IMG/VR virus record: IMGVR_UViG_3300030108_003227
Span: 1 to 58,465 of that record
Direction: 5' to 3' (one strand)
DNA length: 58,465 bases
Source of the DNA: a virus
A program made the translations under genes and the position numbers. The notes below the pieces were generated by a model. The model worked only from the letters and a program-made list of their open reading frames with translations. It made no database searches and had not been told where the DNA came from. Shown here piece after piece: positions 29,501 to 47,073 of the stretch. Each line of letters starts with the position of its first letter. Position 1 is the stretch's first letter.

Positions 29501-32500
29501 CAGCTTTGACGCAGAAGATAATGGATGGGCAAACTACTGAGGATGCAGAAGCATTCTTTGCAGCCAACCCCAGCACGTTGTCGATTGCTATCTTTTATAT
29601 AAAGAAATTCATTAACGGTTTCATCAGGGCATTCAGTGACGGCACCAAGGGGCTTAAGCCAGAAGAGCGAATTGCTGTGAACCGTATGCTGGTTGAACTT
29701 CGTGGGTTGGAGATGGGTTACCGTATGCCACGGCGAATGGACCCGAAGGCTGGTCCGGAAGAAACGGCACTCCAGTTTTTGAAGACCGTTGGTGCGGAGC
29801 CAACTGAAGAGGATGACACTATCAAAGTTGACAAAACCACGCTCCCACAAGAAATGCCGTCCGGTCTTGAGTCGGGGGTGGGGGGCACATTTGTTGTCGA
29901 GGGAGATGAGGACGTTGCTTACATGGAAGCAGTTGAGGCAGGGGACACTAAAACAGCTAAGGAAATACTCGTTAAGGCTACAGATAAGATCACTGTTGAT
30001 TCCTTCAGACAGCTCGCACATACCGTGACCTTGCAGCGCATGGGGGTTGGGTCTCTTCTCAGGGCGCAACAGGAGTATGATAAGAAGCAGGAAAAGTTAG
30101 CTGAGTTGGCTACTGAACCCACTGCGCCTACTGAACCTACCACACCCGTAGAGGAGGCAATAGGGGTAGAAGAAGTTCTTACCCCCGAGCAGAAAACTAA
30201 CTTGGATGCAGTCCTTAATGGAACCGCTCAAAAAGCGGCTCCTGTAGTAATCCCAAAAGAACAAGTTAAAGGAAAGATAGACACCTTAAAGGGTAAGACG
30301 TTTAATATACGAGGTGGCTCTTTTAAGTTCGCTGAACTTTCAGTTGGGTTTGAGTCCATAACAGGTAAACGAACCAAAACGGAAGGGGTCTTTTTCTTCG
30401 GAGGGGGGCGATTCTATGTGCAAGTAGAGATAAACGGAGTCCCCGTCACGTTTTACCAGTCCACTGGCAAAGGAGGAAAAGTATTACAGAGTGGCAGGTT
30501 TTACCCGACAATGGGCGTTGGCACTGACAAATTTATCCAAAAAACAGGAAGCAAGGACATGGCTCGCTTTTACGGGTCTCCTGAGATGGCGCAGGTTTCA
30601 GCTTTTCTGGACGCGGAATTTGGCAATTTATCCCATCTGTTACTTGGTGATGGGCGCGTAGCCGACCCCGATGTCGGGGTAGTTGGGACTAACGCCAAGA
30701 TCATGTCCCGCCTTAGTGCGGGTAGGAAAACTTACACCCAAGCAGAAATCAGTAAAGACCCCCGACTGGTCTTGGATCAGATGGATGGAATCCAGCAGAA
30801 GATCCGTGCTGGAGAACCTGCTCCTGCACCAGCGCCCACTCCAAAGCCGTCTAAGGAACACGCAGAACTCAAAAAGTTCTTTGACGATAAAGATGCTCTT
30901 CAACAGCAACTCTTTGATATGTGGGAGGAGAAGACAAAGGTTGGACCCAAGCACCTTGAGATAATCGTCCGCGACAAAGACGGTAACATCATCCCCTTAA
31001 GTCAAAGGTTAGGGTTTGATGTTAATGTGACCAAGGTGGAAGAAACGTCTCAGGTATTGGAGCCGAGGGTGCCAATCCAAGAATTTGATGAAAGCGGAGC
31101 ACCTATTACTGGCTTACCAAAATTCCGTGAAGAACTAAGTTTGTCTGAGCTGCAAAGTTTACTTGAAAATGAGGAGGAAGGTTCAGATAGAATCCCACTG
31201 ATTGAGTCGGCTATAGAACGCATCGAGAGTGAAATGCGGGACAGGGAAAAAACGAGCCGCCCACAGCCTGATGGAGACGCATTACTCAAGATGTTTGCTT
31301 CGGAATTAGGGATTAAAGTTGATGCCACTATCGACAAAGGTGGTGTGCTCTACTCTGGATTTGGTGCAAGACGGAGGCGTGGGGACACGGACTTCAACGC
31401 ATTTAATTTTGATTACGAGCAACTCTTCTCGCAGTTTGAGATGCCCGTGCTTGAGGTTGATGACCTGAAGATTGAAAAAGGATTTAAGGGTCTGATGAAA
31501 AAGCACCTTGTTGGATTGCTTCAACCAGAGATCCACCACTGGATGAAGCATCGTCAGGCTCTTAAGAAGACCGTAGCCACTGAACTTAAAATGGCGCAGG
31601 TTCAACTAAGGGGCCTGATAGAACAGGTCTATCCTGATGGATCAGTGCCTGTTGACCCTGATGGGCTAACCATTATTCAAAAAGCAACTGGATCAACAGA
31701 AGGTGTATTCCTTTCTGACGCTGTGTCAGCCCGACTCGATAAGGATCTAAACGATGCGAAGAAAGCAGCTTGGTTGAACGCACACACGCAATCCCAACAA
31801 GCTGGGGCAGACATAAAGCAGATCCAAAAAGATCAAAGGGATGCGGTAAACGCAGCTAAAGCCAAGTATGAATCAGACATTAAAGCTGAGTTGGTAAACC
31901 GCAGAGCTGAGATCGTGGCCGAGCGGGATGCAGCACGAACACGAATTGCTAAGGACTCGAAAGAGTTGCTGGTTGCTTTGATCAACCTGAGAAAATTAGC
32001 GGACAAGTTTACCAATAAACTAGAAGCAATACATAAAGAGTCTGTCATTAAGGGAACCACTGGTAAGTATGATGTTAAGATCAGCGATAACAATGGCATC
32101 TACCTGACGCGCACATACAAGATATTCTTGGACGTTGGGTATGCCGATGCCGTCCGGAAGAATCCGGAATACCAAGAGGAGCGGGATGCTGCTATCGCTT
32201 TCTTTGAGAAAACCCACCTTGAAAACGAAGAGGGCAAACTTCGTATGGAGCACCCTGCTAAGACGGATGCCGAGATCAAACAAATGGCCAAGGACAACAT
32301 GGTTGGCCGCAAGATTGGTGAGCGTGCGCTTGAAGCCTTCATCAGTTCATACGAAATGAAGGGCAGCGGGGATGCATATATGTCCGCGCAGGAATCAATC
32401 AAGTCGATGGTTGATAACTTGAAGGCCAAGAAGAACATACCGAAACCATTACGGGACATTCTGGGTGAGCAGAAAGATAAGACCACACCAGACAACCTGC

Positions 32501-34590
32501 TCCGCACAATAATGACAGTGGGTTCGATGGCAGCTAATCAATCGTTCTTAAACTCAATAGCAAAAGCTGGGTTAGACAAAGGGTGGCTAGTCACTGAAGA
32601 AGAGTTCAACAGCAACAGGGACAAATACGTTGATCCTGAAACCAACAAAGAGTGGCAGCGTGTTGTGCAGCATACATCTGACAGGCAATACAACCCCCTG
32701 TCAGGATTGTATGGTCGTCCAGAGTTGGCAGGAGCCTTCGCAGAAACCTTCAAGGAATACGGAACATCCTACGCAAATGATTCTGAGAAGCTCATGGCGG
32801 GGTCGTTCAGGTATTTCCAGAAACTGACAGGTTATTCGATGGCCTCCAAGACTCTTGGAAGCACGGGTTTCTACATGAGGAACGCTTTAAGTAACGTCCT
32901 GTTCTTTGGACCCATGCAAATGGGTGGGGTAGGAAACCTGATGTTGAGCAAGGACTATTTCACAAATTTTGTAACAGAGTTGAAACGCGCCCATAAAGGA
33001 GACAGGGCTAAACTTGACGACGAACTAGCTAAGTTACGTTCACTCCGGATAATTGGTGACGAGAGCAGGACCAACACAATGAGGCAGTTGATGCTTGGAG
33101 AAAGGTCACTTGAGGAGGTGGAGCAGGATTTCATCAGTAGACTGGAAGACGCCGAGGGCGCTGTTGGAAAAGCAAAGGAGAAGGCGGGGCAGGGTGTCGA
33201 ATACCTTTCTCGTATGGCGGCAGCAATGGATGCGTTTTTCAAAATCGCATATTATAAAAATGAACTTAAGGTGTTGGAGAAAGCCTACGCCAACGAGCTG
33301 TCTTCTTTAAGTCCGGAAGACCGTGCAACAAGGATGTCTCAGATTGAAAAGGAGGCCGCTTCCAAAGTCCTCCGGACAACGCAGGCTTACTCCGAGGCAC
33401 CACCGTTGGTGCGGGCGCTACAGAGATCCGTGTGGGGTTCCTTCCTTGCACCGTTCGTTCGCTTCAAGGCTGATGTAATCAGGGTGATGTATAATACCGT
33501 CAAGGTTGCGATGGAGGAGCGAGCGAGTGGTAACGCTGTTTTGATAAAACGAGGTAACCAAAGATTGCGTGGGTTCGCATTCACGATTGGTGGCTTGTCG
33601 TTCCTTGTTCCGTTGCTCCTGAGAATGATCTTCGGAGTGGGTGAAGAAGAAGATGAAGCATACAAAGCGGCGGGTCCGAAGTGGGCGAGACACAACACGC
33701 TGTGGTATCGCCGCAAAAAGAATGGTGAGTTGGAAGCGTGGAACCTGACGTTCCTTAATCCGTTCTCCACTGTGATGGACGGGGTGAACAGCGCCGTCTT
33801 GGGTGAGTTCTTCGGTGGGGGCAGCTTGGACAGTGCCATTGAGGTTGGTCTGTCAGCAGTGTTTGTTGACCAGTTTCTTGATGATCAGATATTCTCCAGT
33901 GCCTTGAAGGAAGCATTTGTTAAAGGTGTTGATGATACAACAGGCAAGAGAGTATGGATCGAAGGTGTTGATACGGGGGTCAACAAACTGTTAAAGCAAC
34001 TCCACCATACTTGGAATAAGGGTTTCGAGCCGAGAGTGTGGACGAAGATGGAGGCCGCGTGGAAGGCCAGTAAGGGTGACTACACCGAGTTGGAATACAG
34101 CCCGATGGGTATTATCTTCAACGAGTTCAAGCCAGTGCGTTCACGCACAGTAAAACCTGACCAACTCTTAAAGCAGTATATCTTTAAGATGGAACAAGCT
34201 AGGTCACAGATCCGTGAGAAGTTCAGACCGCTCTACAACAAGAATGTTTCTGTCTCTGAAGACGAGATATTCGATATCTACGACGAAGTGTATGAGGGGT
34301 TGAAGGACATCAACAAGGACATCATTCGTAAGATGGGTGGTTTTGAAGGGTTGGGCTTATCCAAGGCTGATATTTACAAGATATCGAGGGGCACTGGTGG
34401 TGGGCCTAAGATGGGCAAGCGCAGAACAGAACTACTTATGAATGGCTACATGGAGAAGCCTGTTCTGTCAGCCAACAAGGTTGCTATTATGATGAAGGAA
34501 GCTGAGACAGATCCAAAAATGGCCGAGCGACTGAGGATCTTTGTTGAAGCGGCCAAGCGATACGACCGCTTCAGTAAGATCGACGATTGA
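20548..34590 (+). CDS. giant polyvalent/ejected virion protein (4680 aa)
   Basis: One uninterrupted frame of 14 kb, almost a quarter of the window. N-terminal 500 residues are helical and polar. Gly/Ala/Ser-rich hydrophobic segments at about 672-695 and 793-817 could insert in a membrane. A Glu-rich linker lies at about 1210-1226 and a Thr/Pro linker at about 3189-3206. Around 2880-2925 the pattern KVAAFDMVSGQLLFDP followed by VIREEMAHKSAK looks like a zincin fold in which the first His of HExxH is Glu (E2914). Long charged helices cover 3700-3850. GSTGFYMRNALSNVLF (about 4103-4118) and a strong transmembrane helix at 4342-4365 lie in the C-terminal region, which resembles the end of large polyvalent proteins of phages and conjugative elements. 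No lytic transglycosylase or polymerase signature was seen. Probably ejected into the host with DNA. Confidence 0.7.
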   Translation: MSEEQFNPLDVLKRAEDILPSEPTADQRIEVSGYDDWLKNQDIQDPLEGHLGYGDYLREEYVKAEAYNGGIERKIKEELGAALVGKGLLTNENKDEVTSRIDAYGKPDFEKQVRDMVAHTGLEQDDWHNGAAYLAKKDTATPEELESILEQAESSVNRTRNAVLQSKLDSGEIAFARFTSEDGRSYVKAGDAAMQIPMHEALRRSREAGGGVNMADALEIQSTGLLDTPEGMSAPRYKLVQLSELEKLIHAEIKNDPKIAIQVEALGKRMAENDYSSFDHFEEGFRKRVSLPVRKFFENMIGTISDPKPLGTEREEAVDRAMSKDIDETVMEISNKYNKDPDAVRTALQEVVVNNAPMKVFKDESNVGDNIRLDGYGLPYVPAAVKLNDDLFESALEARSDISAATKEALRTERDSFLTTNFVDISKKLTESELSKDWLDHLNKGRKSGLKDRDILSAFTSNPDNRTYADTIFGDLDLGWRDLYRPLTSAFSTVFALGGADWAKEHLKDIAEDNNQRRELAELFGGKLGMAQDLIKLAPEVTVDIGATALLSKFGGRAAATSLAATKAPLYSSMTKKGVLKALTTNAFRRKAGQETADLAENLAAQNLIRNATSKTALDALEAYNKVNLRAITVSSIGLTAANRSAGATYGTVYNQMLKSGASEEDAHDRALGTGMVAGTVTGLITGSFSAFGVGGMEDALLSGMSYRNLKDISNRIIQKADHVSIDGVSDALLQSAIKESAKSVLRKNFFGKGILKAGSAEFAEEALDEFVNTFVTDAGLEQDTPIFDHMKHSLYAGVLGGIMGSAAPVISSAARRVRPDRMREVQEARAYEQRIITDITDRLKEANSEVTADVVKDILEADLYTMPQQEVVTESDIDAETLAETQDAPPETLEEFLSAFNTVSEEDIQEEIESVMGPRLAQMERDVTKEDDQSVFILDEAGEGIVYTNDLVPADKNLTPELSEKLETKPHLLTMDQTLWESYDPEFAALVKDRFKKDKDGKLASPLSEQQQDFVDAKIQEFAAAQRKIVELAAKKGRPIKTPTLGPQPLEDLGLTKEEYFELDRLRMEDRGEVGVVAGTSLGVERIFNTKPVSEQTGDEGIETVTKFQLITKVTYDSNDTAPFVVAPNAERTVSDDGSITDIISRGYFSTKKEAQKEAKNVEDVTGLKAEIVPVSVPVKKRKKVEVGDVEVAKVTEYQVFITKKAEPEVEEEVEEEEEVEELAPMPEVGETIKYLPYPNAKELETAEVRKITDEGIILVEDKEMGAEVEVKLSEIVTDKKEAKRAAKTTRKRTKKPKEPKAELVASFGTQEEANQKVEELRKQYTVEQADIEIKPVKKDRTDFSGVTSGGVPVFEEGGLEQRAEAESATHNDMLNRIKELGKKLNDPVKVRDGKKPLLTFKEAREKLIELLDKKNDKEAKAERKEQRDAFEEIEDTYEKAIQQAEFDFEVGDINAALLEIEKKAALTSRYQKLVKLRRNKKAQDLLKEAQKKQAEGTPLLIKGRGNTLREGQIIKDKNGNLQLKPLRGRDKNPITPVDVNGNIYLVTSKIDPITKQKVWHEFGRQDVGANYNTKEKFIQYLKYGPKDAPSKMPWEGLRLSAEESAEVGAIANYGLPPAGLSQTKRFGITKQRKAKGFYPSLNRAITKRIYQLYPVLPVSRPTNGSVITAVDKVTGYSPWAEVTSEKGRVVKGKKRKDPNLFPAQPTSYRPKAFVYKNGVGVFDNDPIAMSVLLGKHPIIIPDSFTGRINKAFRYQRIDGDLVVTDIVGVGANGVAQSMKRKKETTIPFSRVALDKEAGFLGLFKSLSLFRNDKTGKTAEVENPNGAGITTVEDLLNDLNDIIENAGKVNLEEEARLSDRKRIAGMKLGEDATIEDQQNALESIGYSSKRAAAEIERLRQDIRITQDQILIAETREESDRLNEVLSARQGELGVALIEFSNSVIPAAKILAVADENVKDNLDRYTKAEGEVKSLQRRIDELADTEKKINKLGKSGSVSKFVFGIGELKAEIQNDPNNQDLVDRLAALEKEAQANKKYQEYEAARKKYLDLLDDKANKNIADQIANAQERQTLQLEGLHRAVLAKEKVIAGGSVAATRDPFAAKKYLDRILSSRRSGKIEEEFRGDAEAALRTEYELHALMFQLRQDMRPFVDSDGNFIDGEAKANIRKAISILLSRIDHPLIAGPTAKKTAKGAIAKEAKQEFAVVLNNLADLGMDNADVNHVEVYRQFIEKLFINGPTYWARGDTLPSFEAVGQRVANNILKQQARRNVRNRNKKLYGQDSIPYPDVEERLSEEERLSGEDKGQSLFFRHFISYDLKQDELLFLIDDLQQDVINILENNPEIRRAFDTLLKEGPFIEMPDFNPAELSAESAWAEMVAYVRQASIGETLGVEGPEGATGAAGVEGGSAVTIDGQLVRRKIATGNVAPLAFLKKLEKGSTPEAQAIKRAFRIYRMADFEFSRDPFKIANPENIAGLKETLADPTVSAEEKSAVTEQLSEVDDALEYTNWLKDEIRYQLAHRVDGNLDLPSELRETILTFQAQNVHKAINEMQARSFFSKSQFAKAIDVAVAGTVNNRNILRLGLDNTSESVLKAMDKIYASEPKEYQRKMARLFGSDQPNAGFVRGVRFQLGLIDNSYASKTEVLADGRIGVTLNAKGWNGRGVTDTLIRSFLHAKLLHNLKSAELTEKQQAAKGKIEATLKALRKKFGGNTQPVMRSGTKSLKDFVDHIFDSSDFQSALKVRLSKKGMPSFDQTLNSLLILTDQRAEVNGDAKFKKSFKDMVDLAGFTYSSPTTPAGVRDEAVTHAGQALAEHDNVHRILGSRLKKQNEEKELSEEDKKELSERANLLAAVAMSRVPAEIEVVMTSIPNGKVAAFDMVSGQLLFDPRNAAIATLERGMDRVSSQGMIGRVIREEMAHKSAKAALTAGMVKAVMDASSDVDYQNDIDAYYGEGTPEAEAAASRLKDPSSEVAFKEKERLVQERLAALTQKIMDGQTTEDAEAFFAANPSTLSIAIFYIKKFINGFIRAFSDGTKGLKPEERIAVNRMLVELRGLEMGYRMPRRMDPKAGPEETALQFLKTVGAEPTEEDDTIKVDKTTLPQEMPSGLESGVGGTFVVEGDEDVAYMEAVEAGDTKTAKEILVKATDKITVDSFRQLAHTVTLQRMGVGSLLRAQQEYDKKQEKLAELATEPTAPTEPTTPVEEAIGVEEVLTPEQKTNLDAVLNGTAQKAAPVVIPKEQVKGKIDTLKGKTFNIRGGSFKFAELSVGFESITGKRTKTEGVFFFGGGRFYVQVEINGVPVTFYQSTGKGGKVLQSGRFYPTMGVGTDKFIQKTGSKDMARFYGSPEMAQVSAFLDAEFGNLSHLLLGDGRVADPDVGVVGTNAKIMSRLSAGRKTYTQAEISKDPRLVLDQMDGIQQKIRAGEPAPAPAPTPKPSKEHAELKKFFDDKDALQQQLFDMWEEKTKVGPKHLEIIVRDKDGNIIPLSQRLGFDVNVTKVEETSQVLEPRVPIQEFDESGAPITGLPKFREELSLSELQSLLENEEEGSDRIPLIESAIERIESEMRDREKTSRPQPDGDALLKMFASELGIKVDATIDKGGVLYSGFGARRRRGDTDFNAFNFDYEQLFSQFEMPVLEVDDLKIEKGFKGLMKKHLVGLLQPEIHHWMKHRQALKKTVATELKMAQVQLRGLIEQVYPDGSVPVDPDGLTIIQKATGSTEGVFLSDAVSARLDKDLNDAKKAAWLNAHTQSQQAGADIKQIQKDQRDAVNAAKAKYESDIKAELVNRRAEIVAERDAARTRIAKDSKELLVALINLRKLADKFTNKLEAIHKESVIKGTTGKYDVKISDNNGIYLTRTYKIFLDVGYADAVRKNPEYQEERDAAIAFFEKTHLENEEGKLRMEHPAKTDAEIKQMAKDNMVGRKIGERALEAFISSYEMKGSGDAYMSAQESIKSMVDNLKAKKNIPKPLRDILGEQKDKTTPDNLLRTIMTVGSMAANQSFLNSIAKAGLDKGWLVTEEEFNSNRDKYVDPETNKEWQRVVQHTSDRQYNPLSGLYGRPELAGAFAETFKEYGTSYANDSEKLMAGSFRYFQKLTGYSMASKTLGSTGFYMRNALSNVLFFGPMQMGGVGNLMLSKDYFTNFVTELKRAHKGDRAKLDDELAKLRSLRIIGDESRTNTMRQLMLGERSLEEVEQDFISRLEDAEGAVGKAKEKAGQGVEYLSRMAAAMDAFFKIAYYKNELKVLEKAYANELSSLSPEDRATRMSQIEKEAASKVLRTTQAYSEAPPLVRALQRSVWGSFLAPFVRFKADVIRVMYNTVKVAMEERASGNAVLIKRGNQRLRGFAFTIGGLSFLVPLLLRMIFGVGEEEDEAYKAAGPKWARHNTLWYRRKKNGELEAWNLTFLNPFSTVMDGVNSAVLGEFFGGGSLDSAIEVGLSAVFVDQFLDDQIFSSALKEAFVKGVDDTTGKRVWIEGVDTGVNKLLKQLHHTWNKGFEPRVWTKMEAAWKASKGDYTELEYSPMGIIFNEFKPVRSRTVKPDQLLKQYIFKMEQARSQIREKFRPLYNKNVSVSEDEIFDIYDEVYEGLKDINKDIIRKMGGFEGLGLSKADIYKISRGTGGGPKMGKRRTELLMNGYMEKPVLSANKVAIMMKEAETDPKMAERLRIFVEAAKRYDRFSKIDD

Positions 34591-36241: not shown

Positions 36242-36319
36242 TTGTTTATTGGTTTGGTTTGTTGTTGTTTGGTTTGGTTGCCGCTTTTCTCAGGCAAGCG
36301 GCCAGCCGTCAACTCTTTT

Positions 36320-36511
36320 CTAAAGTTTATGGACTAACTTCTGCAACTCCTCCACTTGGGCAAGTGCTTCATGAAGGACCGCATCCTTGTCAACCTTGGG
36401 TTGGTGTAACCCGATCAGCTTGTCATGCAAGCTGTCGAGTTCCTGCTTGATGACCATCTGTGCAGACTTGCGTTGCATAGCTGGGAGATATTTCCTTACG
36501 TCGATAATCAT
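36320..36511 (-). CDS. hypothetical helical protein (63 aa)
   Basis: The long frame opens at 36628 but overlaps another small gene; the ATG at 36511 (MIIDVRKYLP) is preferred. It is almost wholly helical and ends in QVEELQKLVHKL. A family-2 hairpin lies a few bases after its stop. No family recognised. Confidence 0.55.
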   Translation of the reverse strand: MIIDVRKYLPAMQRKSAQMVIKQELDSLHDKLIGLHQPKVDKDAVLHEALAQVEELQKLVHKL

Positions 36512-37291: not shown

Positions 37292-37465
37292 TTACTCTTC
37301 TAAATACTGGTCAAAACTACGGTAACCCGTCACTGCATACAGGACGCTTTCCATAGTTTCTAAACTCCATCCGTTTATCGCGGTGACTACTTTAAGGGTG
37401 TCTTCAGAAACCCCTGCGTGTTCGATTAAGCAATCCCATGCTTCGTTTACTATAGTGTTACTCAT
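37292..37465 (-). CDS. small conserved-looking phage protein (57 aa)
   Basis: ATG at 37465 and TAA at 37292-37294. It contains AWDCLIEHAGVSEDTL, then AINGWSLETME and VTGYRSFDQYL, a helical segment pattern I recall from many unrelated lytic phages, always uncharacterised. Preceded by the A-rich leader (AAAAAACAAATAAGACA). Small but well supported by leader, start and composition. Confidence 0.6.
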   Translation of the reverse strand: MSNTIVNEAWDCLIEHAGVSEDTLKVVTAINGWSLETMESVLYAVTGYRSFDQYLEE

Positions 37466-37537
37466 TGTCTTATTTGTTTTTTAGTTTTTGGTTTTAAGGT
37501 TGCCCCTTTTATCAGGCAAGGGGCCAGCCTTTGGGTT

Positions 37538-38869
37538 CTATTCGTGCATGTCGCTATGGTTAGCGATCTTCCGGTTGATGCTTGTCATCACCTTCTCCTC
37601 GATGGAGTTGGCGGCAACCAGCACCTCCTGCAAAGCGTCCGACTTGGCACCGTTGCGGTGAATCCTGCCGAGCACCTGCTGGTATTCCTTCGCGTTGAAG
37701 GTTGGGCAGATCAGGGATGACCGTGGGCGTTTACCTTGCACATCGTGTAGTGAGATACCCGTGCCCCCAGCAGAGATGTTGCACACCACGCAATGGGATT
37801 CATCACGTTGGAAGCTGTCGATGATAGCTTGCCGTTGTGCTGGTGTCTGCGAACCATCAATCGAGTCACACTTCAGACTGACCTTCAGTGCTTCGACCGT
37901 ATCCGAGAAGTTCACAAACACGACAACACTCTTGCCAGCCGCCATTGAATTCTTTGCCATCTCTGCAATGTCCACCGCCTTGTAACTCTCAGCCAACTGG
38001 CGAGCCTTGAGCAAGCGGACAAGGACATGCTCACTATCAGTGACGGTCCCCTTCTGGATGAAGTCGTCAATGATCTTAGGTGTAATGCCAAGGTCGTCAT
38101 ATGCCTTGATGATCTTGTCATTGCTGCGGAAGTTGATCGGTCGCACAAACACACGGTTGTTGCGGAAGGCATCAGGGAAGTCAGCCGAGGTCAGCCTGTT
38201 AGTATTGACCCCATACATGAGCGCACGAAGTCTGCTAAGTGCCGTGCGGTCAGTCATCTTGTAACTACCCCACTGATCCTGAGTCACACCGAAGTTCCGC
38301 ATGAACCTCCAGAAGTGATCCAGTCCACCCTTGGCGAACTTGCCAGAGTGCAGCCCGAGCATCAGCCCGAGTGCGTTCATCTCCGTTGCGTCCTCACAGG
38401 GTGTTCCGGACATGCCGTGGATGCGGTAGCCTTGAGTCACCAAGGCAATCAGCATCTTGCTGTTAGCTGTGTTCAGCCCTTTACACTTATGGATCTCGTC
38501 CACAAGGATGAGGGTATCAGTGGGGAGTGAGTTCACGTTCCACTGAAAGGCATGTGCCTTCCTGCTACCACGTTGCGTGGTGATCTTGTCGAGGTAGGGT
38601 GTGCTCCCTGTCTTCAACTTCTCAAGGTTGGAGACAAAGATAGGTGTGATGCCAACCTCTTCCAGCTCGCGTTCCCATGCGGGGATTACTGCCTTGGGGC
38701 AGATTACCGCAACGGGTTTGCCGTAGTCACGGGCAAGGTGGCAAGCCACCACCGTCTTGCCCGTCCCCATCTCAGATGAGTCGAGCGTGTTCTTTCCAGA
38801 CAGCAGCACCTTCAAGAAGAAGAGCAGCGCCTGAACCTGCACAGGGAATAGTGTTTTAACTATCTTCAT
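37538..38869 (-). CDS. SNF2-like superfamily 2 helicase/translocase (443 aa)
   Basis: All main SF2 motifs are present: Walker A MGTGKT (K38), DEIH box ILVDEIHKCKG (124-127), SGTP (154-157), GGTGISLHD, and motif VI QVLGRIHR (398-405). The order and short length match phage SNF2-type helicases, such as UvsW-like or T4-like DNA translocases, without accessory domains. It could remodel protein-DNA complexes or recombination intermediates. It follows the VWA gene on the minus strand, separated by a family-2 hairpin and an ACAACAAAAGACAAA leader. Confidence 0.85.
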   Translation of the reverse strand: MKIVKTLFPVQVQALLFFLKVLLSGKNTLDSSEMGTGKTVVACHLARDYGKPVAVICPKAVIPAWERELEEVGITPIFVSNLEKLKTGSTPYLDKITTQRGSRKAHAFQWNVNSLPTDTLILVDEIHKCKGLNTANSKMLIALVTQGYRIHGMSGTPCEDATEMNALGLMLGLHSGKFAKGGLDHFWRFMRNFGVTQDQWGSYKMTDRTALSRLRALMYGVNTNRLTSADFPDAFRNNRVFVRPINFRSNDKIIKAYDDLGITPKIIDDFIQKGTVTDSEHVLVRLLKARQLAESYKAVDIAEMAKNSMAAGKSVVVFVNFSDTVEALKVSLKCDSIDGSQTPAQRQAIIDSFQRDESHCVVCNISAGGTGISLHDVQGKRPRSSLICPTFNAKEYQQVLGRIHRNGAKSDALQEVLVAANSIEEKVMTSINRKIANHSDMHE

Positions 38870-38937
38870 TTTGTCTTTTGTTGTTTAGGTTGGGTGCCCC
38901 TTTTATCAGGCAAGGGGCCAGCCGTCAATTCTTTTCG

Positions 38938-40428
<1,491 letters not shown>

Positions 40429-40505
40429 AATGTTTATGTTCTTTCTACTGTTTGTTGTTAAGGTGGGGCAAGGTATAGTCGGTTATACCTTGCCCCCTTG
40501 GTTGG

Positions 40506-41501
40506 TTAGATCACAAGCAGATCGTCTGCCGCCGCAAGAACGAGGTCAGACTTCTTACTGAGATCCTCAAGGAGTTCCTCCCTTTCAGGTGGGTCCATCT
40601 TGGGAAGCTCCAACGACTCATAGTCGGACAGGATGGTGTTGCAGATATTGCGAACAAGATCAGCAACGGGTCCAGCAGTCACACCGAAACGATCCTGCTT
40701 GTCCTTGATCGAGTCCACCCTGTTAAGGATGTTACGCATGTTCTCGTTACGCCACCGTCCATTCTTCTTATTGTGAGACTCATCCAGCTTGCCGATGTTT
40801 TGCCTGATCAGCTTGCCGAGTCCGTCCAGTTCATTGGCGAATGCTTTCTCCTCCAATGTGGCTTGGCGTTGTGCTGCTTGCATCGCAGCAGCAATGCCTC
40901 GATTCATTGCCTCATCAGCAATAGCACTGACTGCGCTAAGGTTTCCAGTAACCAATGGTTTCTCCATGAAAACCACGGAGACTTGGAACTCATTGGCGAA
41001 CTCCTCTGCATCCGTGGGATACTTGGGCAACGCTTCCTTAAGCAGTTCCCTGCCATTGTAGTTAGGGTTGCCCTCCAAGTCATCCTTGCCCTGCCTCATA
41101 AGGAAATCGAATTCCTTAATGACTTCGGCCTTGGCCTTGGTGAGTTCGCTCTGGGTCCGGTCATAGATGACCTGCACCTTAGCCTTGTCCTTGTTGGAGA
41201 TGATGTGTGTTCCCTTGTCGAACTGTAACGATTCGCCAAGGCCGACTGTCTTATCGCCATCGCGGATAGACTTACTGAAGCTGGAAAGAATCTTCCTGAC
41301 TTTAGATATAGAGTTATCCTTGGTGCGATAGAGTGAGGCATTGATTCGGACATTCTTCTTGCCCTCCTCAATACCATTGGCACGCCGCAACTTCGCCGCC
41401 GCCGCCTTAAGGGAGGTGTTCGGGTTGGCTTGCTTAACGTGAGGACGCACCATGCTGGTGCCCCTGATCTCTTCGATGCCCATGTTATTTAGTCCATTCA
41501 T
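40506..41501 (-). CDS. hypothetical protein of the MoxR-VWA module (331 aa)
   Basis: Mostly helical, basic N-terminus (HVKQANPNTSLKAAAAKLRRA), long coiled-coil-like helices (about 100-130, 205-250) and an acidic C-terminus. It sits between the MoxR ATPase and the VWA gene, each flanked by the same leader and hairpin elements. It recalls DUF3150-type proteins found near such ATPases (from memory, unverified). Probably the third component of the complex. The leader AGTAGAAAGAACATAAGAGA is identical to that of the MoxR gene. Confidence 0.55.
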   Translation of the reverse strand: MNGLNNMGIEEIRGTSMVRPHVKQANPNTSLKAAAAKLRRANGIEEGKKNVRINASLYRTKDNSISKVRKILSSFSKSIRDGDKTVGLGESLQFDKGTHIISNKDKAKVQVIYDRTQSELTKAKAEVIKEFDFLMRQGKDDLEGNPNYNGRELLKEALPKYPTDAEEFANEFQVSVVFMEKPLVTGNLSAVSAIADEAMNRGIAAAMQAAQRQATLEEKAFANELDGLGKLIRQNIGKLDESHNKKNGRWRNENMRNILNRVDSIKDKQDRFGVTAGPVADLVRNICNTILSDYESLELPKMDPPEREELLEDLSKKSDLVLAAADDLLVI

Positions 41502-41648
41502 TTCTCTTATGTTCTTTCTACTGTTTGTTGTTTGGGTGCTCCTTCTTTGAACGGTGAGAAGCTAACCGTCAATTCTTTTCTGATCTTATCTTGTCTGATG
41601 TTAAAAGGGGGCAAGGTATAGTCGGTTATACCCTGCCCCCTTGCTTGG

Positions 41649-41732
41649 TTAGTTAAGGTCGCGGATCACCTTGTCACCCTGCTCCTCAAGAGCGGTGAGC
41701 GTATCCGGATCAAGGAACTGCTCGTCACCCAT
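41649..41732 (-). CDS. possible tiny ORF coupled to MoxR gene (27 aa)
   Basis: ATG overlaps the MoxR stop (TAATG); the product begins MGDEQFLDPDTLTALEEQG and ends in VIRDLN. A hairpin of the operon family follows its stop by about 8 bases, as for recognised genes. These two features are the only support; it could be untranslated. Confidence 0.35.
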   Translation of the reverse strand: MGDEQFLDPDTLTALEEQGDKVIRDLN

Positions 41733-43012
41733 TACTTGAAGGTGACGAGAGATTCTACCTGCTCCACATCAATGCCGCGCAACTGGCAGAGATCGAATGA
41801 CCACTTGCCAATCTCACGATCAACATTGAGCAGCAACCTCTTGGTGAACCATCCAGTCGCCTCCTGAATGTGGAGGGCGGCATCCAGATTCTCAGTCTCC
41901 TGCAACACTGCAACAGCAGCGAGGCAGAACTGATACTGTTCAGCAGGTGACGAGGGAAGAACCGCATCATCACCATTGATGTATTTCTTAACCTCGTTCT
42001 TCGATTTGCGGATAACCTTGATGTATTGGATAGCACGATCTGCCATCTTGTGTCCGAGGTATCCACGAAGCATGATCTCGAAACCATCAGGGTCGCTACT
42101 CCAATCGAGGAGGGCTTCCTTCATGGCATACGCGGAAGATCGGAATGAACATATCTGCTGACCACGATGCCCATCATTCTGATCGAAGATGGAACACTTA
42201 GCGAGTTGCTCACTGGCAATCCCTTTGGCCTTGGCTTCAATGTTATGTTCAAACTGCACCCAACCGAAGAGGGGTGACCGCGCCATCAACTCACCACCCT
42301 TGGGGCCAGCCAACTCTTTCTTCAACGCAAGAACATTCTTGAGTGTGAAGGGTGCGTTAGCCAACAGGTATTCCGGTGATGCCTTATGACTGCGAGACAG
42401 AACATGGAGGTAATCATTCACGTTACCATTAGACGTAATGTTTTTAGCCCTGTTGACGAACGGAGTCCTCAACCGTTGGGATGAAGAACCGTCAATGCCA
42501 GCACGGTTAGCTGTCATGTAGATTGCGAGGTTCGGCATACACACCCTTGACAGTGCGCTATCCGGATCGGACAGATCAAGGATAGTGTCCTGTGTCTGCT
42601 GCGTTGCCGTGCCGATCTCATCTACATGCCACAATATTGTAGCATCCAGTCCAATGGCCTTACCATTCCGCTTCACCTTAGACCAGTGATGACGGATAGG
42701 CACACACTCATGGTCTTGCAGATAAACCTTCACCTCTTTCGAGTCAGGGTTTGCGTGGTCCGGTGCTCGCATCCCTTTCAGAACGGAGGTCGGAATGTCA
42801 GTCGCATTCAGCGTGACCCTGCCAAGGGCACCGACCAGACCAGCGAAGAGCTTCGCCCTGTATGTCTTGCCAGTTCCACATGGTCCGGTGCTCACCATAG
42901 GCACATTGTTGTCATGGACCTGCATTGCGACTGCTTGATTCGCAAACTGCTGGTCCGTGTCAACGGGGTTGCCCTGCTCATACTCTGCCTGTGCTTCATT
43001 TGTTTTACTCAT
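41732..43012 (-). CDS. MoxR-type AAA+ ATPase (426 aa)
   Basis: The frame opens at 43054, but the ATG at 43012 (MSKTNEAQ) follows the conserved leader and is preferred. Walker A is GPCGTGKT (43-50), Walker B ILWHVDEIG (D131, E132), sensor 1 region IYMTANRAG, and an arginine-rich segment RLRTPFVNR follows. The C-terminal 200 residues are a helical extension. MoxR ATPases work with VWA proteins to remodel or activate target complexes; the VWA protein lies two genes downstream. Confidence 0.8.
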   Translation of the reverse strand: MSKTNEAQAEYEQGNPVDTDQQFANQAVAMQVHDNNVPMVSTGPCGTGKTYRAKLFAGLVGALGRVTLNATDIPTSVLKGMRAPDHANPDSKEVKVYLQDHECVPIRHHWSKVKRNGKAIGLDATILWHVDEIGTATQQTQDTILDLSDPDSALSRVCMPNLAIYMTANRAGIDGSSSQRLRTPFVNRAKNITSNGNVNDYLHVLSRSHKASPEYLLANAPFTLKNVLALKKELAGPKGGELMARSPLFGWVQFEHNIEAKAKGIASEQLAKCSIFDQNDGHRGQQICSFRSSAYAMKEALLDWSSDPDGFEIMLRGYLGHKMADRAIQYIKVIRKSKNEVKKYINGDDAVLPSSPAEQYQFCLAAVAVLQETENLDAALHIQEATGWFTKRLLLNVDREIGKWSFDLCQLRGIDVEQVESLVTFK

Positions 43013-43152
43013 TTCTCTTATGTTCTTTCTACTGTTTGTTGTTTGGGTGCTCATCCTTTACATGGCGATGAGCCTTCCGTCCATTCAATTCTTTTCTTTT
43101 GAAGTTAAAAGGGGGCAAGGTATAGTCGGTTATACCCTGCCCCCTGTTGGGG

Positions 43153-43512
43153 TTAGAGACGCTCCGCTACCAGTTCAAGTTTCTGGATAACGGATCGCAG
43201 GGCTACATGAGCATCTTCATAGGCCGAGTTTTTCTGGGCCTCGATGCGTTCAGCTTGTGCCTTAGCCTTGCACACAATGTCTTGCGCTTCCGCTTCAGCA
43301 TTGGCAAAGATGTCCTTCGCTTCCTGCACCATCTCACGGTGGTATTCTTTCACCGTCTTGCCATAAACATCAGGGGATACATCCAATCGGATAGCCTGCC
43401 TGATGTATGGCAGTTGGTTAGCGAAGTAATCTCCGCAGTAAGTTGTGTCCCCATCTCTAGTGAGGGAGGCCACGAACTCTTCCAGCAATTTAATCTCTTC
43501 TTCTTTTGTCAT
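43153..43512 (-). CDS. hypothetical coiled-coil protein (119 aa)
   Basis: Helical throughout. Residues about 65-105 have Ala/Glu/Lys heptads (AEAEAQDIVCKAKAQAERIE) typical of coiled coil. Short leader GGGATTCAACAAATAAGAACA, no Shine-Dalgarno. A family-1 hairpin follows the stop within about 10 bases. Function unknown. Confidence 0.6.
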   Translation of the reverse strand: MTKEEEIKLLEEFVASLTRDGDTTYCGDYFANQLPYIRQAIRLDVSPDVYGKTVKEYHREMVQEAKDIFANAEAEAQDIVCKAKAQAERIEAQKNSAYEDAHVALRSVIQKLELVAERL

Positions 43513-43517
43513 TGTTC

Positions 43518-43958
43518 TTATTTGTTGAATCCCTTTTCACCTTTGCGAATGAGACGAGCAAGATACTGGAGGTCTTTCGCCAACCGTTCATCCCTTTCTG
43601 CTCTGGCACCTTCTGTTATGGCTCCACGCCACACCTCTTTCGATTCCGGACTGAGGTTAGGAGAGTCTTGCAGGAATGCTGTTACCTCCTCATCAATCTC
43701 TTCATTGGTTTGGGGCCTGCGTCGGTTCACTAATGGATGCTTAGGGTTGACGAGAACCTCAGTCTTTGCACGGATCTTGCAATCATCCACCATGATGGAT
43801 GCGAATCCGGTGCAGACTATTCCTCCTGTAGCCAGAAGGATAGACAACAACTGGAAGCTACCGAGTTGGTAGTCCAGTGCAAGGTTGGCCAGTCCGATGA
43901 GGAACAGGACAACCCCGAGTGCCACAAGGACACGGTATGCTATTATCATTTTCTTCAT
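43518..43958 (-). CDS. two-helix membrane protein (146 aa)
   Basis: The frame opens at 44024 across a hairpin; the ATG at 43958 (MKKMIIAYRV) follows the operon leader and is preferred. Two transmembrane segments are clear: about residues 8-28 (YRVLVALGVVLFLIGLANLAL) is given here as positions only beyond its first 20 letters, and about 35-57 (LLSILLATGGIVCTGFASI). The C-terminal 85 residues are soluble, charged and helical. A role in superinfection exclusion or host-envelope takeover is possible but unproven. Confidence 0.6.
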   Translation of the reverse strand: MKKMIIAYRVLVALGVVLFLIGLANLALDYQLGSFQLLSILLATGGIVCTGFASIMVDDCKIRAKTEVLVNPKHPLVNRRRPQTNEEIDEEVTAFLQDSPNLSPESKEVWRGAITEGARAERDERLAKDLQYLARLIRKGEKGFNK

Positions 43959-44044
43959 TTGTCTTATCTCGTTTGTTTGTTTTTGGTTTAAGGCAGCAGG
44001 GTATAGTTGGTTATACCCTGCCACCAGATTGGTTAGCGGAATGG

Positions 44045-44230
44045 TTAAGGGTTGAAGGGCAGTCCCATCTTGCGACCAAGATGGTAACTGATTTCGTCGA
44101 TCTTACGCGACAGTTGCTGCCGCGTAGCCGGTGTGAGGACATGCCCGCTATCGGCCAGCCTCATCTTATAGTTTGCAAGGAGCGCTTTGAGATCGTCCTT
44201 GCTCATCTCTTCCAGTTGTTGTCTAGCCAT
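44045..44230 (-). CDS. hypothetical helical protein (61 aa)
   Basis: Charged helical product, LEEMSKDDLKALLANYKMR then RQQLSRKIDEISYHLGRK. Leader GCAGTAGAAAGAACATAAG is nearly the same as before the MoxR gene. The hairpin copy at 43994-44022 follows its stop. Function unknown. Confidence 0.55.
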   Translation of the reverse strand: MARQQLEEMSKDDLKALLANYKMRLADSGHVLTPATRQQLSRKIDEISYHLGRKMGLPFNP

Positions 44231-44304
44231 TGTCTTATGTTCTTTCTACTGCTTTTTGTTAAGGGCGGCAGGGTATAGTTGGTTATACCCTGCCACCAGA
44301 TTGG

Positions 44305-44685
44305 TTAGTCCCCGATAACGAGGTTTCCGGTGGACGGGTTGTAGTATCCGACCTGCTTCCAGCAGACATGTCCGAGAGGCTTGTCCTCACTGTGTCCGAT
44401 CCGCTCCCAGATCGGGAGATGCTTGTAGGTGGGGGAACGCTCCGGCGTGAGTTTATCCTCCACCCATGCGACCTCCACCCATGTGACTCCGCTCCAGCTT
44501 AACAGGAGCCACTCGCCCACCTTCACCTTGTCGGCATCCTGCATGAATTCGTCGAGGGTGAATTCGCTCTCCCACTCAGCGTTCTTGGGATACCACGCGA
44601 AGTGGACCCGCTTATCGTGCCTCTCGGTAGCCAGCTCCAGTGCTCGCTCCTGAGTCTCGGTAAGTTCAATGTTTCTGTGTTTCAT
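44305..44685 (-). CDS. hypothetical protein (126 aa)
   Basis: Trp-rich alpha/beta protein (WLLLSWSGVTWVEVAWVED) with an N-terminal helix ETQERALELATERHD. Its stop lies 10 bases before the hairpin at 44266-44294. Preceded by an A-rich leader. No family recognised. Confidence 0.6.
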   Translation of the reverse strand: MKHRNIELTETQERALELATERHDKRVHFAWYPKNAEWESEFTLDEFMQDADKVKVGEWLLLSWSGVTWVEVAWVEDKLTPERSPTYKHLPIWERIGHSEDKPLGHVCWKQVGYYNPSTGNLVIGD

Positions 44686-44760
44686 TTTACTACTTTGTGT
44701 TTGTTGTTTTTGGTTTAAGGTAGCAGGGTATAGTTGGTTATACCCTGCTACCTAGATTGG

Positions 44761-45006
44761 TTAGTCCCACTTATTGAAGATCACCTTGTTTCCCTTGGTG
44801 AAGGTGCGCTCTTGCAGAACAGGCACCCCGTCCACACCTTCAAACTTTCTAGTGAAGGTGCCTTCCTCCATAGCGAGAGCTTTCTTCGGGGAGGTGGAGA
44901 TACACACTCTGGTGTAGGTGCCGGTCTCCCAATTACCACCGCAGGAGGGTGGGTTCTGCTGATGCTCTACGATCTTGTATTTGTAGAGGTTGGATTGTCT
45001 AGCCAT
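44761..45006 (-). CDS. hypothetical protein (81 aa)
   Basis: Small basic beta-rich product (SNLYKYKIVEHQQN, GNWETGTYTRVCIS). Hairpins lie within ten bases of its stop (44718-44753) and upstream of its leader (45041-45070). No motif. Confidence 0.55.
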   Translation of the reverse strand: MARQSNLYKYKIVEHQQNPPSCGGNWETGTYTRVCISTSPKKALAMEEGTFTRKFEGVDGVPVLQERTFTKGNKVIFNKWD

Positions 45007-45076
45007 TTGTCTTTCTGTGTTTGTTGTTTTTGGTTTAAGGTAGCAGGGTATAGTTGGTTATACCCTGCTAAAATCT

Positions 45077-45376
45077 TTACCCTTCCAGCGCATGGGCAAG
45101 GGCAGCGAGGTCATGGATTGCCAAGTAATCTTCCAGCTTCAGTTGGACTGCATCATAGAATGTTTCGGTGGCGATCACCTTGCCCCCTTCAGTTGCATTG
45201 ACAGTCTGGGGATGGATAGCGTGGTTTGCGATGTGGGTAATGTTACCGCAATCATCTACAGTGAAGATGTCTTCCCGCTTCTGAATCAGATACTGGAATA
45301 CTTCTTCATTCACTCTGCCGCCAAACACATCATGCACTATGCAGAAGTTTGTGTCGGAATCGTTTACTTTGCTCAT
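45077..45376 (-). CDS. hypothetical protein (99 aa)
   Basis: Acidic alpha/beta protein; IFTVDDCGNITHIANH looks like a beta hairpin and the C-terminus is helical (LEDYLAIHDLAALAHAL). Leader ACACAGAAAGACAAATAACA. A hairpin copy follows the stop by 6 bases. Function unknown. Confidence 0.55.
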   Translation of the reverse strand: MSKVNDSDTNFCIVHDVFGGRVNEEVFQYLIQKREDIFTVDDCGNITHIANHAIHPQTVNATEGGKVIATETFYDAVQLKLEDYLAIHDLAALAHALEG

Positions 45377-45448
45377 TGTTATTTGTCTTTCTGTGTTTAG
45401 GGTTAAGGTAGCAGGGTATAGTTGGTTATACCCTGCTACCAGTATCTA

Positions 45449-45691
45449 CTAGAATTCCATCGCCGTGTTGCACTCATAATTGAGAGCACGACAGACTTCT
45501 GCCTTGGTCCGTCCGAAGGAAAACGAGGCGTAGGATGCACTAGTCTGGATTGCATACCAGTCATCCATGTCATCCTTTCCCGCCTCAATAGCTGCCTCGT
45601 TCACGGCGAGCTTGGCCTCGTCAAGAGTGGGGAAGTATTTGGAACGGGTATCCCCATTGGCATTGGTGTATGTTGCAATAGTAACATTCAT
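45449..45691 (-). CDS. hypothetical protein (80 aa)
   Basis: A TIATYTNANGDTRSKYFPT strand-turn start followed by helix TLDEAKLAVNEAAIEAG, then WYAIQTSASY, a ferredoxin-like or dsRBD-like order of elements. Leader AACACAGAAAGACAAATACA. Hairpin 8 bases past the stop. No family recognised. Confidence 0.55.
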   Translation of the reverse strand: MNVTIATYTNANGDTRSKYFPTLDEAKLAVNEAAIEAGKDDMDDWYAIQTSASYASFSFGRTKAEVCRALNYECNTAMEF

Positions 45692-45767
45692 TGTATTTGT
45701 CTTTCTGTGTTTGTTGTTTTTGGTTTTAGGTAGCAGGGTATAGTTGGTTATACCCTGCTAAGATTGG

Positions 45768-45986
45768 TTACTTGGTTCTGGAGTATCCACACTTAGGACA
45801 CTTGCATACAGGAGTAGGTGAGATGATGCCAACGGAGCGGGTGTTGCAGGTATAATTGGTGGTTTCGGATGTCTTTTTGTAGAGGGGCGTGTTACCTGCA
45901 AAGGTAACTCTCTTCAGGGCAAGGCCATCTTGGAGAGGGACATTGCAACGGGGACACGTGGAAGCGGGATTGGTAGTAGTGTTCAT
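45768..45986 (-). CDS. zinc-ribbon protein (72 aa)
   Basis: Two CxxC pairs, CPRC near the N-terminus (STCPRCNVPLQ) and CPKC near the C-terminus (VCKCPKCGYSRTK), about 50 residues apart, form a zinc ribbon like those of transcription factors or RNA-binding proteins. ATG 45986 (MNTTTNP) follows an A-rich leader; an in-frame ATG at 46019 is an alternative. Could interact with host RNA polymerase or RNA. Confidence 0.6.
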   Translation of the reverse strand: MNTTTNPASTCPRCNVPLQDGLALKRVTFAGNTPLYKKTSETTNYTCNTRSVGIISPTPVCKCPKCGYSRTK

Positions 45987-46125
45987 TTTGTATTTTCGGT
46001 TTAAGGTCTGCTCTATCATGGCAAACTCATCTCTGCCAAGGGGCAGCAAGGTATAGTTGGTTATACCTTGCCGCCGCCTTAGCAGGGCATGAATTGGCTA
46101 TGGTGAGGGTATAGTTGGTTATACC

Positions 46126-46650
46126 TTACGCGGCGTTCTCAGCCGCATTCACAACCGCTTCCAAGCCATGCTGCTTCACAAGGCTGGCCACGATCTGCTC
46201 CATCGTGCGGGGCTTGCGCTTGCCCTTCTTATCGCCATCCCAGATAGGCTTAAGGGTATTGTTATTATCCTGCTTTGTGAGATAGGCGCTCTTCCGGCGA
46301 ACCGAGGGAGCGGGCTTGATGCAATAGCCAGCATCTTCCATCATCTTCAACCCCGCGTTCCATGCTCGGAAGAAACCTTTCCGAGATACCCCAGACTCCT
46401 TGGCACGGGTAGCAAAGTCAAGGTGATTGGGCGCATGCCCTTCACTGGCGACCACTCCAGCGACGACGCTGGAGATGGCATCCTCTTCATTCCCGTTGTT
46501 GATCTTACCGGACCCAAAAGCGTGGATGGTGTCCACGATATTGTCGCAGGACCGATGGTGCTCTATTCCGGCAATGGCGCATGCTTTGTCGAACTTGGCA
46601 TTGTTCGATGCGAAGATTGCGGTCAGTTTAGCTGTGGTTGTATTGTTCAT
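46126..46650 (-). CDS. hypothetical DNA-binding-like protein, first gene of accessory operon (174 aa)
   Basis: The frame opens at 46836, but the ATG at 46650 (MNNTTTAKLT) after the A-rich leader is preferred; the longer version would cover the hairpin and operator-like DNA. The middle contains an HTH-like DFATRAKESGVSRKGFFRAW segment and the tail is basic (GDKKGKRKPRTMEQIVASL). Being first in the operon and possibly DNA-binding, it may regulate the operon. Its stop is inside hairpin copy 46101-46130. Confidence 0.5.
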   Translation of the reverse strand: MNNTTTAKLTAIFASNNAKFDKACAIAGIEHHRSCDNIVDTIHAFGSGKINNGNEEDAISSVVAGVVASEGHAPNHLDFATRAKESGVSRKGFFRAWNAGLKMMEDAGYCIKPAPSVRRKSAYLTKQDNNNTLKPIWDGDKKGKRKPRTMEQIVASLVKQHGLEAVVNAAENAA

Positions 46651-47073
46651 CTTATCTTGTTTTCTGTTTTTGTGTTTGTTGGTGAGGGAGGGGGTATAAT
46701 TGGTTATACCTTTTCTCTCCCTCTTCACCTCTGAATGGGGGGCAAGCAAAGCAAAGTCTGGAAAACAGGGGGAAGGGGAAGAGAAAAACCGTTGCACCTT
46801 TCCTGCTAGGTTCAAGTGAACCGTGCAACCGTGCACCTCCTCCAGATGCCCTTTGACTGGCCCTATATAGTCCTGTTAAATCAATTCGTCATATTCCACT
46901 TACCTAAGTCACTGAGAATGAGGGAGTTAGGTTATAAGTTCTGACAAGATGTGTAATGCTGACTAGACGCCACGGGGGGGGTGGGGGTTTTTTATGCACG
47001 CACGCATGTATATATATCTAGGCGTGTGAAAAAATTTGACTCTCCTTATTTTGCACGCATTATGCACGCACCT
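46651..47073. promoter_or_regulatory. divergent control region between accessory operon and the 47-kb genes
   Basis: 423 bp without a supported gene. It holds hairpin copy 46685-46720, a nested palindrome (46791-46829), a plus-strand sigma70-like pair TTGACT (46853-46858) and TTAAAT (46876-46881) with 17-bp spacing, a G-run followed by T6 (46974-46993), four GCACGCA motifs (46995-47073) and a TATATATAT tract. The region can plausibly drive transcription to both sides. Confidence 0.5.
46791..46829. promoter_or_regulatory. nested palindrome, operator candidate
   Basis: GTTGCAC (46791-46797) and GTGCAAC (46823-46829) are inverted repeats enclosing a second perfect palindrome, GGTTCA-AG-TGAACC (46809-46822). 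It lies just upstream of the TTGACT/TTAAAT pair. The nesting suits two dimer-binding sites. No tRNA structure can be built around it. Confidence 0.5.

Follow-up and report, generated by a model that had tools for sequence, protein, structure and literature searches.

The window analysed here, 58,465 nucleotides of an uncultivated marine phage, carries on its minus strand an accessory operon punctuated by a repeated hairpin. The first gene of the series, gene 1 (46126–46650), encodes a protein of 174 amino acids, has hairpins on both flanks and, among the genomes searched, is found only in phages with the hairpin type of the window (type A). It is followed by exchangeable cassettes at 43153–45987, which comprise the ORFs 45768–45987, 45449–45691, 45077–45376, 44761–45006, 44305–44685 and 44045–44230, and a two-gene cassette, 43518–43958 with 43153–43512. 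A MoxR-like AAA ATPase gene (41732–42997; PHROG 1297, ATPase, E = 2e-4) belongs to the portion of the array that varies less; in two relatives, G009 and G010, the corresponding position is occupied by a homologue with 28% identity. Its partner gene (38938–40428) encodes a VWA-like protein of the DUF2201 type (Pfam PF09967, E = 1.7e-10), and the two minus-strand genes form a phage-borne VWA/MoxR pair. A lambda-exonuclease-like PD-(D/E)XK gene is also present. Searches of the phage collection gave no match for the terminase, the VWA protein or the gene 1 product. Ahead of gene 1, the block CAGGACTATATAGGGCC (46859–46875, minus strand) occurs once in the window and is identical in G009, where it has the same place upstream of the array; it is probably the operon promoter.

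The hairpin has an 18-nt core, GGTATAACCRAYTATACC, present in 12 copies between 40472 and 46710. A search with the pattern GGTATAACCRACTATACC, allowing up to three mismatches, yields 12 matches, 11 exact and one with a single change, compared with a mean of 0.02 in shuffled sequence. All are on the minus strand, and the rest of the window genome has none. This agrees with a sequence-only reading of the region, which had described twelve like hairpins in one orientation and none in the structural operons. Every copy is intergenic or at a stop codon, and stems are 6–16 bp long. Copies are referred to below by the coordinate of the core.

In the order of transcription, the first core (46693–46710) lies in the 5′ untranslated region of gene 1 and has an offset outer stem, GAGGGAG/CUCCCUC, with a fold of −17.8 kcal/mol. 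Two hairpins follow gene 1: the first (46108–46125) consists of the core alone, a 6-bp stem immediately after the stop codon, and the second (46042–46075) has a 14-bp stem. Five single copies are then found 3′ of successive ORFs, at 45731–45760 (after 45768–45987), 45407–45440 (after 45449–45691), 45041–45070 (after 45077–45376), 44718–44753 (after 44761–45006) and 44264–44297 (after 44305–44685). The next (43992–44025) follows ORF 44045–44230. The last three copies have the loop ACCGAC: one is 3′ of the two-gene cassette (43110–43145), one is 3′ of the ATPase gene and a 27-aa ORF (41605–41642), and one lies between a 331-aa ORF, which is upstream, and the VWA gene (40465–40496). Three of the 12 deviate in form, i.e. 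46125 with its core stem only, 46710 with its offset outer stem and 43136, which is terminator-like.

The stem follows a stop codon by 0–19 nt in 10 of the 12 copies, and 22–103 nt separate the stem end from the next ATG. A spacing of 6–12 bases after the stop had been described; it holds for eight copies, at 6–9 nt, but 46125 is directly at the stop, 44017 is 19 nt from it, the core of 46067 is 58 nt away and 46710 precedes gene 1. Similarly, most small genes do have one hairpin after them as was proposed, but gene 1 has two, and hairpins are missing from the gap that separates genes 43518 and 43153 and from the 3′ side of the VWA gene. With a hairpin ahead of the first gene, the array is of the n+1 kind and not a plain series of elements placed after genes.

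Stem changes had been called compensatory and the RNA structure selected, and the alignment of copies upholds this. Five pairs of the outer stems have changed on both sides, and there are 18 double-change cells compared with 4.6 in shuffles (0 of 500 shuffles as high), although the copies are related, so that these cells, like the wobble counts below, are not independent and the figures overstate independence. Stem cells are paired in 87% of cases, versus 27–46% when the helix is slid. One stem pair, for example, is represented by UA 8, GC 5, UG 3 and CG 2, and another by AU 7, GC 6 and GU 5. On the mRNA strand G.U wobbles number 19 versus two A.C (10 versus 0 in type A; 9 versus 2 in type B, the form found in G009 and G010). 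Since a G.U on the mRNA strand is an A.C mismatch on the other strand, the transcript is favoured as the unit of selection, and judged from these alignments it is likely to be so. Fold z-scores were obtained for six window copies: 46710 has −5.45, 46125 has −0.94, and the remaining four range from −6.1 to −7.0, the last value being that of 46067. The type A core itself is invariant within the lineage, whereas the outer stems vary.

A structural-covariance search, suggested together with the sequence-only reading, was carried out with a model built from 19 hairpin copies and run on the window and ~1.4 Mb of relatives. On the sense strand it matches the arrays of the window, G001 and G002, with no extra copies. 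The weaker matches on the opposite strand are the known sites read backwards, except for one chance-level match in locus L140. The type A core, at up to three mismatches, is absent from 50 terminase or polymerase relatives, many of which are fragments. Rfam has no match to the window above the gathering score; a permissive scan gives let-7 and others at the hairpins, at chance level. Core matches in G003 were dismissed as a coding collagen-like repeat (GYTGSQGDQG), and a single match in G004, as well as nine single matches in bacterial genomes, each of one copy, were presumed to be chance.

The hairpin is part of a repeated unit that consists of a stop codon (TAACCAATC...), the hairpin and an A-rich leader. 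The 25 nt 5′ of the cassette ORFs contain 63% A and 8% T, compared with 32% A and 30% T for plus-strand genes, which confirms the A-rich leader reported earlier. Shine-Dalgarno motifs are not found in these 25-nt leaders. A-rich leaders are present in the remaining minus-strand operon as well (52% A). Promoter-like sites in the region number 10 versus 12.9 in shuffles, and none is in the hairpin module on the operon strand.

Comparison with the near-identical phage G002 provides a direct picture of exchange. The two genomes are ~98% identical on both flanks of the array, but gene content and order differ between the hairpins. ORFs 45077–45376 and 44761–45006 are common to both phages (93–94% identical DNA) and have different neighbours, whereas ORFs 45768–45987, 45449–45691, 44305–44685 and 44045–44230 are replaced by others in G002. 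Seven of the eight block ends coincide with a gene boundary or are at most 7 nt from one, although intergenic sequence makes up only 18% of the stretch. Repeat similarity itself draws block ends into repeats, which makes the exact joints uncertain; that whole ORFs have been exchanged is nevertheless clear. Left hairpin arms stay attached to the gene before them and right arms to the gene after them, and the resulting mosaics still pair (in G002 at 10360, GGTGGC with GCTACC). Reshuffled genes between the same hairpins, and block ends at boundaries, indicate that the stop-hairpin-leader unit acts as a cassette boundary, and the cassette organisation of leader, ORF and hairpin that had been postulated is thereby seen in the exchanges themselves. 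The remaining joint (43760) is inside gene 43518–43958. That minus-strand gene is a chimera, with its first 66 residues 95% identical to G002 and the remainder unrelated.

G009 and G010, whose terminases are 87–88% identical to that of the window, have hairpins at the same locus, ten and seven, respectively. These have a different core, GGTTAACNNNNGTTAACC (type B). Positions correspond to those of the window: before gene 1, after the gene at the 43518 position, after the MoxR gene and after the 331-aa gene, and G009 also has a double hairpin 3′ of gene 1. The MoxR and 331-aa genes are only 25–28% identical between the lineages. Among the type B copies, roughly half are limited to a 7-bp core stem, several have a core that overlaps the stop codon, and some have U-rich tails. 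Their double-change pair count is not above that of shuffles, and covariation is weaker than in type A. ORF 44045–44230 is 91% identical to a G009 homologue that is followed by a type B hairpin, which suggests, on sequence comparison, an exchange across lineages in which the resident hairpin type was retained. In the window the stop codon of this ORF comes shortly before a leftover stop context, CTAACCAATC, situated between that stop and the stem, and the ORF looks as if it had been set into a pre-existing module.

The sequence-only reading missed three features: that a hairpin also stands ahead of gene 1, that near-identical phages have exchanged entire cassettes, and that relatives carry another hairpin or promoter-like motifs in place of this core. 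Taken together, with joints at the boundaries, they point to a boundary or recombination-joint role in addition to a role in the mRNA.

Among the relatives searched, hairpin arrays are found in two lineages only. When the relatives were scanned de novo for hairpins and 12-mer repeats, type B was found in G009 and G010 alone; a type B pattern scan of IMG/VR adds just two further contigs with a single match each, and protein searches with VWA, MoxR and helicase reveal no new lineage. The corresponding region of two other relatives, G012 and G015, has ORFs whose starts directly follow copies of a TTGACA-N17-TATACT-like motif (G012 has six, G015 four), and both have additional TTGACT-type copies. 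On the operon strand of G012 (locus L147, C1:40001–60000), ~7 nt separate the −10-like box in the repeated promoters from the ATG that follows, a spacing that leaderless messages would show. Looser promoter-like repeats were seen by eye in G034, G018 and G042. Other relatives, several of which are fragments, have no repeat at the locus. One group of uncultivated marine phages thus displays type A hairpins, type B hairpins, promoter-like repeats or none found in corresponding regions, and this allows comparison within a family. How phages swap accessory genes with expression intact is an old question, discussed mostly for T4-like phages. A cassette protein at L029:9645–9986 (minus strand), with homologues in G009, G010 and G044 contigs, weakly resembles Gp96 of Kyanoviridae (E 4e-5, which falls short of the cut-off).

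Several known systems offer partial parallels. The intergenic RNase III hairpins of T7 and the REP elements at 3′ ends of bacterial mRNAs process or protect polycistronic mRNA. The window hairpins are likewise intergenic in what, from the sequence, is a putative polycistronic mRNA, but stems of 6–16 bp are short for RNase III and the sequence is not that of REP. PeSLs (promoter early stem-loops) of T4-like phages combine a promoter and a terminator stem-loop (Arbiol 2010; Comeau 2014, via PMC4503421). As characterized in that citing description, they are repeated stem-loop elements between small accessory genes and are tied to gene shuffling among related phages (PMC4503421), and such shuffling is seen between the window and G002. 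Compared on the same description, the window differs: no early promoter is detected within the module, the stem-loop is not terminator-like (one of 12 copies excepted) and the phage itself falls outside the T4-like group. What corresponds to the promoter half of the PeSL occurs instead at this locus in G012 and G015.

The stoperators of Cluster A mycobacteriophages are asymmetric 13-mers, bound as DNA by the repressor and found also in promoters (PMC9283540). They share with the window hairpins the many copies, the short intergenic gaps and the single orientation relative to transcription (12 of 12 minus in the window). The window site, however, is an 18-nt inverted-repeat core with covarying RNA stems, it is confined to one operon, and no repressor was recognised among the proteins scanned. 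In Cluster K, SAS are located at translation starts and ESAS just upstream; these elements include inverted repeats whose consensus differs by subcluster (PMC3203893). Here the likeness is in the non-structural location, the nearly uniform orientation and the lineage-specific inverted repeats, as with the window core versus GGTTAACNNNNGTTAACC. Unlike these start-site elements, the window hairpins are just past stops, with the stem 22–103 nt before the ATG, and the leader has no Shine-Dalgarno-like repeat. Cluster O mycobacteriophages have a 17-bp palindromic repeat, invariant with a variable centre; its copies show little orientation, about one-third of them are inside genes, and recombination between copies has been proposed to lead to gene loss (PMC4351075). 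The window array has in common with it an invariant palindrome with a variable centre, many intergenic copies and probable recombination between copies, but its hairpins all lie between genes or abut a stop codon, and they share one orientation. None of these systems corresponds in full, the closest being the T4 PeSLs, the Cluster A stoperators and the Cluster K ESAS. The array belongs with the repeated boundary elements of phages, a known kind.

The interpretation favoured here, with a probability of about 0.5, is that the hairpin serves as a boundary element in the RNA, by which each ORF is expressed as an independent unit, and that it provides homology for exchange. It would be the centre of a boundary module, made up of stop codon, hairpin and an unstructured A-rich leader without Shine-Dalgarno sequence, within one long accessory transcript. 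Most likely, the hairpin after each stop would be a barrier that shields the 3′ end formed by a cut in the single-stranded leader. The sequence-only reading had proposed mRNA processing or 3′-end protection that evens out expression, roles that are conjectural when judged from sequence alone. It may also stop the next leader from pairing with the upstream coding sequence, and in these ways each ORF would become self-contained in its expression. An identical core at every boundary would supply short homology through which whole ORFs could be replaced by recombination with expression signals kept, and the lambda-exonuclease-like PD-(D/E)XK gene counts in support of such exchange. From the sequence we infer the transcript itself, the 3′ protection or insulation and the recombination via the hairpin. 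Several observations weigh against the boundary-element interpretation. The 7-bp core stems of about half the type B copies are weak for protection from exonucleases, and the hairpin before gene 1 is unnecessary for 3′ protection. In addition, one joint (43760) is within a gene, joints inside the module are uncertain, and only two lineages have the arrays.

A second possibility, more tentative, is that the core is the recognition site of a lineage-specific phage protein, perhaps the gene 1 product; a binding site for a phage protein had also been put forward in the sequence-only reading. It would act on RNA in processing or antitermination, or the site would be a DNA operator that blocks elongation in the manner of stoperators, and the core would change as a set with the protein. 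The invariance of the core within each lineage beside variable outer stems is consistent with this, as is the replacement of every copy in G009 and G010 even next to conserved genes. Moreover, in the genomes searched each lineage has its own gene 1, that of the window being confined to type A phages and that of G009 to type B phages, and a palindrome of 18 bp would fit binding by a dimer. For the gene 1 product, AlphaFold predicts a winged-helix-like stretch at low confidence (pLDDT ~57–72 over residues 81–110), but the model as a whole is poor (mean pLDDT 50.6; 41.8 for gene 1 of G009). Foldseek finds no PDB fold match for gene 1 (none below 0.001), and there is no Pfam or NCBIfam match. The restriction to two lineages also counts against recognition, no hairpin site overlaps the putative promoter at 46859–46875, and covarying outer stems with G.U on the mRNA strand would be unexpected of a double-stranded DNA operator. 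A uniform core is expected from copy-and-paste spread as well. No hairpin-binding protein was identified among the proteins scanned; gene 1 as a lineage-specific reader is attractive but weakly supported. An elaboration, which appears rather unlikely, is a punctuation of phage mRNA: a lineage-specific hairpin code and a cognate phage factor, perhaps again the gene 1 product, would yield single-gene messages from one transcript, code and reader would change together, and new genes would have to sit between hairpins of the resident type.

That the hairpins are partial transcription terminators which grade expression along the operon seems slightly less probable still. Stems are strong and GC-rich, some type B copies have U-rich tails, and T4 PeSLs contain a terminator, as indicated by the title of Comeau 2014 (via PMC4503421). 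The sequence-only reading had argued against intrinsic termination from the lack of a T-run. The argument stands, although the premise needs qualification: the 10-nt tails of 11 of the 12 copies contain 1–3 T, but TTTT follows the GC stem at 43136 and 41632. By a sequence test, only 43136 conforms to the terminator rule of a GC stem followed by a U run and scores as terminator-like. The region has 11 terminator-like sites versus 14.3 in shuffles, fewer than by chance. A terminator ahead of gene 1 would make little sense, and termination does not require a conserved loop and inner stem. The least probable explanation is an element without expression role, a selfish or passive short repeat spread with genes by recombination, which would account for near-identical cores at recombination joints and for the many relatives that lack a repeat at the locus, but not for outer stems that keep pairing despite changes on both arms and in mosaics, nor for hairpins kept at corresponding places beside genes only 25–28% identical between lineages.

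A second repeated leader element, GAAAAGAATTGACGG followed by CTGGCCCCTTGCCTGAYAAAAGGGGC or variants, is present 5′ of five minus-strand genes, at ~43020–43098, 41510–41582, 38870–38938, 37460–37545 and ~36260–36320, and also in G001, G007, G009 and G010. Its 5′ part resembles a −35 box. The aligned sequences suggest a stem that covaries and, possibly, a pseudoknot in which GG pairs with CC; RNAalifold recovers only three pairs from an alignment with two rows out of register. On the plus strand, 20548–34590 of the window is a single ORF of 4680 amino acids that has no Pfam or PHROG match and is in parts conserved in relatives.
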